This document shows positions 20,601 through 35,547 of a stretch of DNA of 51,444 nt, one piece after another; the first letter of the stretch is position 1; each line of letters opens with the position of its first letter. Below the pieces are notes generated by a model. The model did no database searches. It was not told the DNA's origin and was given only the letters and a program-made list of their open reading frames with translations. The position numbers and the translations under genes are program-made. The stretch is from Burkholderiales bacterium. GTDB lineage: Bacteria; Pseudomonadota; Gammaproteobacteria; Burkholderiales; Burkholderiaceae_C. Location of the stretch: the NCBI GenBank assembly GCA_019510465.1, contig JAEKKH010000147.1, forward strand, positions 1 through 51,444, read 5' to 3'.

Positions 20601-20688
20601 AGTCAAGGGAGCGCGGGAACCGGCTCTGCCGGGCCCGTCGCGGCCGGCCCCCTCGGGGGGCAGCGACCAGCGGGAGCGTGGGGCTCTA
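20601..20688 (-). repeat. Dispersed GC-rich palindromic repeat, copy 1 (supplies ybaB stop codon)
   Basis: Read on the minus strand it begins with TAG, the ybaB stop codon, then GCCCCACG, the core TCGCTGCCCCCCGAGGGGG, CCGGCCGCGA and GAGCCGGTTCC, and fades near CTCCCTTGACT. It matches copy 2 at 23069-23155 over nearly the whole length. The inner palindrome CCCCC/GGGGG would form a hairpin in mRNA. Confidence 0.75.
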
Positions 20689-23070: not shown

Positions 23071-23155
23071 GCCCCACGGTCGCTATCGCTCCCTGCCCCC
23101 GAGGGGCCGGCCGCGAGCGGGCCGGCATCGCCGGTTCCGCCGCTCCCTCGAACTT
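23069..23155 (+). repeat. Dispersed GC-rich palindromic repeat, copy 2
   Basis: Begins TAGCCCCACGGTCGCT, then CCCTGCCCCCGAGGGG, CCGGCCGCGA, GCCGGCATCGCCGGTTCC and CGCTCCCTCGAACTT. It is in the same order as copy 1, with a shortened core. It fills half of the gap between the divergent dnaX and PurM-like genes, directly upstream of the dnaX -10 element. Confidence 0.75.
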
Positions 23156-28799: not shown

Positions 28800-29050
28800 G
28801 ACGGTGCTCGCTACCCTGGGGGATTCGACATCGGCCGCCAGGTCGGAACGAGCAGAACGACTCGCCGGACACCCGACGCCAACACCGCTCCCCCACGCAC
28901 CCTCCCGTCGAGCGGCCAGCCGGCGGGAATTCTTCTGATCCGCCAAATTCTCCATGGAATCGCCAGGTTGGCAACAGATATTTACACCCCCTCCCGAGGG
29001 GCCCGCGCCCCCTTCTTGCCGCCTGCCTGCCCGATGCTAAACTGCCGGCT
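28800..29050. other. Gap before the glycine riboswitch, with partial repeat and promoter
   Basis: Contains a weak copy of the palindromic repeat near 28986-29003 (CCCCTCCCGAGGGGC) and a probable promoter for the gcv operon: TTGCCG (29016-29021), 16-bp spacer, TAAACT (29038-29043). The RNA would start near 29050, at the first aptamer. Nothing else is seen. Confidence 0.5.
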
Positions 29051-29292
29051 TGTCAGGAGAGAGTTGGCTGCCCGCGTTCGCGCGTCGCGGCCAGCCGCCG
29101 AAGGCGCAGGGGCCACCACCCCGAACGCTCAGGCAAAAGGACTGACGAGACGCCTGTCGAAAGCAGGCGTTCCTCACTGGAGAGAGACGATGCGGTCGAC
29201 GGCCATCCAGCCGGCGGCGAGATCGTCCACCGAAGGGGCAAGCGGGGTCGGCACACCGGCGCTGCAATCTCTCAGGTAAAGCGGACAGCGAG
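29051..29292 (+). promoter_or_regulatory. Tandem glycine riboswitch controlling gcvTHP
   Basis: Two aptamers in series, recognised by the recurrent motifs of the glycine riboswitch. Aptamer 1 (about 29051-29148) has GTCAGGAGAGAG at its 5' side and ends CTCAGGCAAAAGGACTGACG. Aptamer 2 (about 29173-29292) has CTGGAGAGAG, CACCGAAGGGGCAA and ends TCTCAGGTAAAGCGGACAGC. The linker holds a hairpin (CGCCTG/CAGGCG, 29150-29169). Glycine binding is known to raise gcv expression in this family. Only about 55 nt separate aptamer 2 from gcvT, so control probably acts on translation initiation or on a short terminator here. Confidence 0.95.
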
Positions 29293-29347
29293 GGCATTGA
29301 GCCGCCCATACGATGGGGCGGGACCGACTGCCCTCGAAGGAACAACG

Positions 29348-31036: not shown

Positions 31037-33919
<2,883 letters not shown>

Positions 33920-33922
<3 letters not shown>

Positions 33923-33962
33923 GCCCCCACGATCACGCTGGTCGCTGGCCCCCGAGGGGGGA
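33920..33962 (+). repeat. Dispersed GC-rich palindromic repeat, copy 3 (supplies gcvP stop codon)
   Basis: Starts with the gcvP stop TAG, then GCCCCCACGATCACGCTGG and TCGCTGGCCCCCGAGGGGG. The 5' half matches copies 1 and 2 closely; the 3' half diverges after the core. The core can fold into a hairpin just after gcvP, before sdaA. Confidence 0.7.
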
Positions 33963-34074
33963 GTTCGGATCGTCTCGGATGCGATCCTCGCCCCCCTCTT
34001 CCTGGTTGGCCCTGCCGGCGGCCGCGCTCCGCGCATGCCGCATGCCGGTACACGAATATCTCTGAAGGGTACCC

Positions 34075-35547
34075 ATGGCAGTCTCGGTTTTCGACCTCTT
34101 CAAGATCGGCATCGGCCCGTCGAGCTCGCACACGGTGGGTCCGATGCGCGCCGCGCGCATGTTCGTCGCCCGCCTCGCGCACGAGGGCGCGCTCGCGCGC
34201 ACCGCGCGCGTGAAGGCCGACATGTACGGCTCGCTCGGGGCCACCGGCAAGGGCCACGGCAGCGACAAGGCCGTGCTGCTGGGCCTGGCTGGCCACGAGC
34301 CGGACACGGTGGACATCGAGCAGGTGCCCGCCCTCCTCGAGGCCATCCGCACGCAGCATCGCGTGACGCTCAACGGCAGCCGCGAGATCGCGTTCGACGA
34401 ATCCGCCGACCTCGTGATGCACCGGCGCGAGACGCTGCCGTTCCATGCCAACGGCATGCGCTTCACCGCGTACGACGACCAGGGCGCCGAGCTGGAGAAT
34501 CGCGTGTACTACTCCGTGGGTGGCGGCTTCGTCGTCAGCGACGAAGTGGCGGCCGACGGTTCGCGGCAGAAGGTGGTCGCGCCCGACACCACCGTCCTGC
34601 CCTACCCGTTCCACAGCGGCGACGACCTGCTGCGCCTGTGCGACGAGCACGGCATCGGCATCGCCGAGCTGATGCGCCGCAACGAGCGCCACTGGCGCAC
34701 GGACGCCGAGATCGACGCCGGCCTGATGAAGATCTGGAAGGTGATGCAGGAGTGCGTGGCGCGCGGCTGCCGCACCGAGGGCGTCCTGCCGGGCGGCTTC
34801 AAGGTCAGGCGCCGCGCGGCGCAGTTGTACCGCGACCTCACCGTCAACCCCGAGGCCGATTCATTTGCGCCCCCTGGCGAAGGCAGGCCTTCGCTGCCCC
34901 CCGAGGGGGGTGGCCCCGCTTGGGGCGGCCCGGCGCTGGGGCCGCGCGACCCGCTGATGGTGATGGACTGGGTCAACCTCTACGCGCTGGCCGTCAACGA
35001 GGAGAACGCCGCCGGTGGCCGCGTCGTCACCGCGCCCACCAACGGCGCGGCGGGGATCGTGCCGGCCGTGCTGCACTACTTCACGCGCTTCGTGCCGGGT
35101 GCCGACGACAAGGGCGTCGTCGACTTCATGCTCACCGCCGCGGCGATCGGCATCCTCTACAAGGAGAACGCGTCGATCTCCGGTGCCGAGGTCGGCTGCC
35201 AGGGCGAGGTGGGCGTGGCGTGCTCGATGGCCGCCGCCGGCCTGGCCGCCGTGATGGGCGGCTCGCCGCGCCAGGTGGAGAACGCCGCGGAGATCGGCAT
35301 GGAGCACCACCTCGGCCTGACCTGCGACCCCGTGGGCGGCCTCGTGCAGATCCCCTGCATCGAGCGCAACGCGATCGCCTCGGTCAAGGCGATCAACGCG
35401 GCGCGCATGGCGATGCGTGGCGACGGCACGCACCACGTGAGCCTGGACAAGGTCATCAAGACGATGCGCGAGACCGGCGCCGACATGCAGACCAAGTACA
35501 AGGAGACCGCGCGCGGCGGGTTGGCCGTCAACATCGTCGAATGTTGA
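34075..35547 (+). CDS. sdaA: L-serine ammonia-lyase (serine dehydratase), with an in-frame repeat insertion
   Basis: 490 residues from the ATG at 34075, with GAAGGG upstream. Single-chain iron-sulfur serine deaminase: [21 protein letters not shown] at the start, [47 protein letters not shown] and [19 protein letters not shown], which carry the cluster cysteines. It converts serine to pyruvate and ammonia, completing the route from glycine via gcvTHP and GlyA. Residues 263-291 (34861-34947) are a translated copy of the palindromic repeat placed between NPEAD and [10 protein letters not shown]; the reading frame is kept. Confidence 0.95.
34861..34947 (+). repeat. Palindromic repeat inserted in frame within sdaA (copy 4)
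   Basis: 87 nt (29 codons) reading [10 protein letters not shown]...GGPALGPR. It contains the core TCGCTGCCCCCCGAGGGGGG shared with copies 1-3, then GGCCCCGCTTGGGGCGGCCC. Serine dehydratases, as I know them, have no residues here. Confidence 0.8.

Follow-up and report, generated by a model that had tools for sequence, protein, structure and literature searches.

Palindromic repeats that are read as parts of proteins are already known from Rickettsia and from some REP sequences. The RPEs of Rickettsia were described as elements of about 150 bp, each with a conserved encoded peptide, nearly half of which lie inside genes (PMC3733652; PMC10969869). GTAG/CGTC REPs are often found beside stop codons, which they sometimes supply, and some of them are located fully within ORFs, where they encode 20-30 amino acids (PMC3733652); a list published in 2013 included REPs within genes of several species (PMC3733652). 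In a review of 2024, a similar coding-palindrome process in other prokaryotes was called "conceivable" (PMC10969869). The BRE of betaproteobacteria has been reported as a high-GC unit of about 90 bp (75-91) in head-to-tail arrangement (PMC3110155).

The window, which is the whole stretch of 51,444 nucleotides analysed here, contains an sdaA gene, encoding a single-chain iron-sulfur L-serine dehydratase (TIGR00720), with a GC-rich repeat inside its reading frame (Table 1). This gene may be part of an operon leading from glycine through serine to pyruvate. At 29044-29298, ahead of gcvP-sdaA and on the plus strand, there are two glycine riboswitch aptamers (RF00504); along with an SRP RNA, these constitute the three Rfam matches of the window.

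Table 1. Positions of sdaA, its insert and the repeat copies in the window
Feature	Positions	Strand	Remarks
sdaA	34075..35547	+	490 aa, frame intact
Net in-frame insert of sdaA	34861..34941	+	81 nt / 27 aa, 79% GC, residues 263-289; none in 463-aa relatives, common to L071
Repeat core in sdaA	34869..34908	+	GCCCCC, inner hairpin (GGCGAAGGC / GCCTTCGCT), CCCCCCGAGGGG; genome-wide pattern
3' part of the sdaA element	34909..34937	+	end = CTTGGGGCGGCCCGGCGCT; also in tandem-array copies
Second family copy, same operon	33923..33959	+	directly after early TAG of gcvP
Family copy	23071..23106	+	pattern match
Family copy	20649..20684	-	pattern match and CTGCCCCCCGAGGGGG search

The sdaA insert and its distribution

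The preliminary description of this DNA had reported the sdaA reading frame, the peptides flanking the insert and a repeat core inside the gene, and all three were found as described. An insert of 87 nt and 29 residues had been proposed; it is indeed in frame, its length being a multiple of three with the sdaA frame intact, and the net length was corrected to 81 nt (27 residues) by comparison with relatives of 463 residues, in which the last two codons of the claimed segment (P, R) have counterparts. Profile searches located the SDH_beta domain at residues 4-157 and SDH_alpha at residues 191-484, and it is within SDH_alpha that the insert lies. The sda_mono/TIGR00720 profile scored 709 bits (cut-off 345) and matched in two stretches, one of them from residue 291. 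The insert is richer in GC than the window (79% vs 71%), and five of the six reading frames are open across its 81 nt.

A scan for SdaA confirmed 313 loci, of which 80 were kept and 72, besides the window, could be parsed. Only one of these 72, L071, carries the 27-residue insert at the same site. L071 corresponds to CAIMXF010000171.1, contig 171 of a sister species (G001); its SdaA is 87% identical overall to that of the window, with six amino-acid differences within residues 263-289. The eight unparsed loci gave match lengths of 1377-1389 nt, which leave no room for the insert. It is absent from two further genomes of the genus, G002/L072 and G003/L073 (Scleromatobacter humisilvae); these nearest insert-free relatives are 84-96% identical on its two sides, as the preliminary description had expected of an insertion. 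At this point the sequence in most relatives is NPEAA-[L or M]-[R or K]-DPL, with variants. The Pro/Gly stretch has no counterpart in the aligned, solved Legionella structure 4rqo, where the matching stretch, residues 269-281, falls between aligned blocks.

An unrelated insert of 11 residues, GGAKPRLIGGP, occurs at the same SdaA site in Rubrivivax sp. CAN_BIN27 (L128), which suggests that this loop is permissive. A 25-residue SdaA insert after residue 102 in L079 has no repeat features; the bin holding L079 has a second sdaA (L083) and is perhaps mixed. L088 was discarded as a case of an SdaA insert because it results from an N-gap artefact.

Residues 260-290 of the window SdaA have pLDDT values below 50 and no secondary structure in the AlphaFold model, itself a weak one (mean 68), so that the insert is predicted to form a disordered Pro/Gly loop. 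In the comparison between the window and the sister species, residues 263-289 gave a dN of 0.125 and a dS of 0.109 (nine nucleotide differences), and the remainder of SdaA a dN of 0.087 and a dS of 0.350 (ratio 0.25). With dN not below dS over nine differences, the insert may be only weakly constrained, a reading that is no more than suggestive. Within the repeat, the inner stem is formed by GGCGAAGGC/GCCTTCGCT in the window and by GGCGAAGGC/GCCTTCGCC in the sister species, where one pair at the stem end is G-C instead of the G-U of the window.

The target duplication suggested earlier, GAT at 34858-34860 with GAC at 34948-34950, found no support, as GAT is missing from the left side in the insert-free relatives. 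The insert is flanked, at 34854 and 34940, by the 5-nt direct repeat GGCCG, whose right copy is not kept in the sister species. No consistent target-site duplication was recognized by eye at sdaA or at eight other aligned sites.

The repeat family and its range

In layout, the repeats have in common GCCCC(C), then an inner segment, then CCCCCGAGGGG, with a 3' part that is rich in GC and often of the form ...CTTGGGGCGGCCCGGCGC. The pattern GCCCCN{12,38}CCCCCGAGGGG was matched 101 times in the window's genome (G000), 49, 12 and 48 times in G001, G002 and G003, respectively, and 74 times in the distant genome TGS_PRO28 (G040); the reversed control pattern gave no match in any of these five genomes. 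Against an expectation of 0.14, CTGCCCCCCGAGGGGG with up to two mismatches was found three times in the window (20648 minus, 33945 plus, 34894 plus), and none of 100 shuffles reached three copies. The short core CCCCCGAGGGG, with one mismatch, did not exceed chance when the window was considered by itself (six copies against 3.1 expected, 16 of 100 shuffles being as high). BLAST of positions 34850-34960 against the window's own genome returned 69 matches, the best non-self match having E 2.3e-8 (85% over query 48-97). The earlier proposal that a repeat of this intergenic family entered sdaA is supported by the match of the insert to the intergenic repeats of the genome, with the site filled in one sister species and empty in close relatives. 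Head-to-tail arrays are common among the copies, with periods, taken from coordinates, mostly of 68-96 bp.

The family was found in all 16 genomes of named Burkholderiales picked from among the 80 SdaA loci, with 3 to 85 matches each; the reversed control gave one match in each of two of them. In a class-wide draw of 274 genomes, none of which was labelled as the same order, matches were obtained in 23. These were G000, the two remaining members of its family (with 22 and 4 matches) and 20 genomes with just 1 to 5 matches each, which by eye look like chance, the reversed control reaching up to 3 in single genomes of this draw.

Within the 41-nt class (34 distinct sequences), covariation is seen in the inner hairpin, with 75.7% of cells paired against 56.4% after shuffling, and a covariation score of 0.411 against 0.122 in shuffles and 0.221 in the best slid version. 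Hairpins are not general among the inner segments, and over the 168 distinct cores the signal of folding is weak: z was < -1 in 66 of them (median z -0.27), and uninterrupted stems are only slightly longer than in shuffles (4.43 vs 4.01). No Rfam family reached its gathering score on the repeat. With permissive settings, Rfam yielded two matches below threshold in 33850-35050, of which whalefall-1 (15.8 bits vs 37) overlaps the repeat on the minus strand. In the open-licence literature, the core string appeared in one paper and one of four longer strings in two, all on other subjects, and no paper listed there appeared to deal with the family apart from that on BRE.

Mobilisation of the family by RAYT found no support: five RAYT loci (two in G000, one in G001 and two in G003) have no core within 3-3.3 kb, and a search for Y1_Tnp in G040 gave no match, although 74 repeat matches are present there. 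At the RAYT loci L151 and L283, the gene is surrounded instead by a different repeat family, GGGGTCAGGTCTTG, in direct and inverted arrangement.

Copies at stop codons and within genes

Repeat clusters are frequently located next to stop codons. In G000, 39 of 68 clusters start no more than 15 nt after a coding stop, all in sense orientation, compared with 4.1% of random positions in the same loci; by the same measure, the figure in G040 is 23 of 61 (22 sense, one antisense) against 2.9%, and 11 of the 12 G040 clusters at 16-60 nt from a stop are antisense. When distances were counted from both ends of the element, with 30 nt allowed for the 3' part, G000 showed 39 sense, no antisense, 26 neither and three in-gene clusters; G001 showed 12, 1, 13 and 2, respectively; and G040 showed 19 sense only, 11 antisense only, three both, 19 neither and nine in-gene. 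A strict sense-only rule, suggested by the ratios of 39 to 0 in G000 and 12 to 1 in G001, fails in G040. Nearness to stops is therefore common to the three genomes, with a sense bias that is strong in G000 and G001, the two of the window's genus, and weak in G040. Clusters inside genes account for 3 of 68 in G000 and 9 of 61 in G040.

The gcvP-sdaA operon holds one copy at a gene end and another that is read through. At 33899-33959, the gcvP product ends ...CSCIQ before its TAG, and those of L071-L073 go on ...CSCVPMS[ED]FA[DE]AAEAEA[EA]QA, which makes two residues after CSC in the window and 17 in these relatives. GcvP tails are also shorter in other relatives, so the length in the window is not in itself unusual.

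In-gene copies were recognized with a codon model trained on the window, demanding one open frame and coding character on both sides of the copy. The test covered 98 distinct copies in G000, where some of the 101 matches are nested, 30 of the 49 in G001, and 62 in G040, which has 74 matches. Three lie in genes in G000 (sdaA, an MdtB/MuxB-type RND permease and an acyl-CoA dehydrogenase), two in G001 (sdaA and a DinG/rad3-like helicase), and nine in G040 (DnaE, Rieske dioxygenase, TamB-like, TPR-like, SdaA, NudC, NtrB, NuoCD-like and GH94-like). For the count of nine, one copy preceding the start of its gene was removed and one that narrowly missed the cut-off was included; L257 was counted with a score of 0.24 despite a cut-off of 0.25. 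Copies in L276 (leucyl aminopeptidase), over the cut-off, and in L252 at 2036, before dnaE, were rejected because they lie upstream of the apparent starts. The names of the RND, acyl-CoA dehydrogenase, helicase, Rieske, NudC, NuoCD-like, NtrB and DnaE proteins come from Pfam and/or NCBIfam, and TamB-like, TPR-like and GH94-like are readings of the sequence only, the TPR-like protein having no NCBIfam match.

With the sdaA copies of G000 and G001 counted as one, the 13 insertions comprise five sense and eight antisense to the gene, in several frames, and 11 of them are outside SdaA in the three surveyed genomes (G000, G001 and G040). The encoded peptides vary, with PPEGG-, SPSGG- and PPRGA-type sequences in both orientations. 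Because the search demanded an open frame, a length that is a multiple of three is partly built into this set and does not measure selection. Same-strand clusters of the three genomes were divided into 13 same-frame and 21 different-frame cases. Three of the former (L231, L274 and L261 at 2041) failed the in-gene test and were left out of the in-gene count; in 19 of the latter the upstream gene ends before the element, and at most two, L275 at 6511 and L153 at 1501, where the upstream frame enters the element, are possible frame-shifting insertions.

SdaA was hit at a second site. In TGS_PRO28, a locus (L150) without the 27-residue insert of the window has 25 residues of the same repeat family after HYYTHFV; this site is empty in all four aligned relatives, with the flanks kept, and residues 316-340 are nearly all coil with pLDDT below 50 in a weak AlphaFold model (mean 63). 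As both the site and the host differ, this is an independent event.

Among the 11 non-SdaA genes, two show clean empty sites in all aligned relatives: the TPR-like protein, longer by 25 residues than four of four relatives, and the RND pump, longer by 26 than two of two (the G001 copy is split between contigs). The TamB-like protein has about 24-26 extra residues compared with two relatives, and the Rieske protein about 25 compared with one, with diverged flanks in both cases. The acyl-CoA dehydrogenase insert is common to G000, G001 and G002 and absent from G003, and the helicase segment is common to G001, G000 and G003 and absent from G002. The sites in NudC, DnaE, NtrB and NuoCD-like proteins vary in length among relatives, making a single insertion less clear, and for the GH94-like copy a search of 13 relatives gave no match to the flanks. 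In L193 (922-2679; C144 of G000), the acyl-CoA dehydrogenase insert is enlarged by an in-frame, repeat-derived duplication absent from G001 and G002. In L261 of G040, the repeat insert lies within the HisKA domain of an NtrB-like kinase, and PF00512 spans 85 residues for 59 profile positions.

Origin of the insert and comparison with known systems

Most probably, a copy of the repeat was inserted in sdaA in the ancestor of two species and now persists as a tolerated disordered loop. A GC-rich palindromic copy of roughly 75-90 bp would have entered the gene in the ancestor shared by the window's species and that of G001, landing in a loop of the catalytic domain of SdaA. Its survival could be attributed to a length that is a multiple of three and to a stop-free sequence in the frame used, and the repeat would now be translated as a disordered Pro/Gly loop of 27 residues, a passenger tolerated by the enzyme. 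The family, otherwise largely extragenic and often abutting stops, may act or persist as a transcribed hairpin at 3' ends, and the copies inside genes would represent a harmless minority.

It seems unlikely that the Pro/Gly segment is instead kept for a function, either in the protein, as a linker or contact, or as an RNA hairpin in the gcvP-sdaA mRNA. The segment has persisted through the split of the two species, with its inner stem kept (G-C in the sister and G-U in the window at one end), and the frequent location of the family at gene 3' ends, in sense in the window's genome, would fit an RNA role. However, dN in the insert is not below dS, compared with the ratio of 0.25 for the rest of the protein, albeit over a small number of changes; the insert is missing from two of the genus's three other genomes; it is predicted to be disordered; and in-gene copies elsewhere occur in both orientations and several frames. 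An ordinary length-variable loop, expanded by slippage and resembling the repeat by chance, is scarcely credible: the unrelated 11-residue insert of L128 at the same site and the location of residues 269-281 of 4rqo outside the stretches aligned here would agree with it, but the match to a genomic copy (E 2.3e-8) covers about 50 nt with the 3' part included, and the same family is found at another SdaA site. An artefact of assembly or binning is just as improbable, for although G000 is fragmented (516 contigs, completeness 88.96, contamination 4.41), the insert, with nine nucleotide differences, is also present in the separate assembly CAIMXF010000171.1, itself a metagenome bin, with the frame intact in both.

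Beyond the insertion of a family copy into the ancestral sdaA, it is possible, and is proposed here tentatively, that a RAYT-free, stop-associated palindrome of free-living Burkholderiales constitutes a recurring source of protein segments, entering conserved enzymes in either orientation and in several frames, SdaA twice among them, and resetting the C-terminus at gene ends, as in gcvP. Filled and empty sites make coding palindromes testable in free-living bacteria, and SdaA, hit twice, has a solved homologue. The frequent placement at stops suggests that gene ends determine where the element is kept, and a role at the RNA level may be envisaged at these places.

Judged by its description, the family is probably the betaproteobacterial BRE. 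The two agree in size (periods mostly of 68-96 bp), in GC content (79% in the insert), in tandem arrays, in host range (16 of 16 Burkholderiales here) and in the presence of some copies within coding sequences (PMC3110155). The part of the BRE account considered here (PMC3110155) gives no in-frame protein alignments, empty sites or counts of orientation at stop codons. Like the RPEs, described as palindromes in frame in unrelated genes and translated, the family contributes protein segments (PMC3733652; PMC10969869); it differs from them in its unit of about 80 bp, its several frames and both orientations, the small number of clusters in genes, and encoded peptides that are not conserved. It resembles the GTAG/CGTC REPs in lying near stops and in having coding copies within ORFs, with DnaE among the targets (PMC3733652), and differs from them in having no general tag (GTAG adjoins GCCCC on the 5' side, by eye, in one of 44 contexts, the copy at 33923), no RAYT association found, and a longer unit, in arrays with periods mostly of 68-96 bp. 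What is informative here beside the described systems is that one enzyme was hit twice, each time at another site, and that placement directly at stop codons is frequent and exists beside in-gene copies of mixed orientation.
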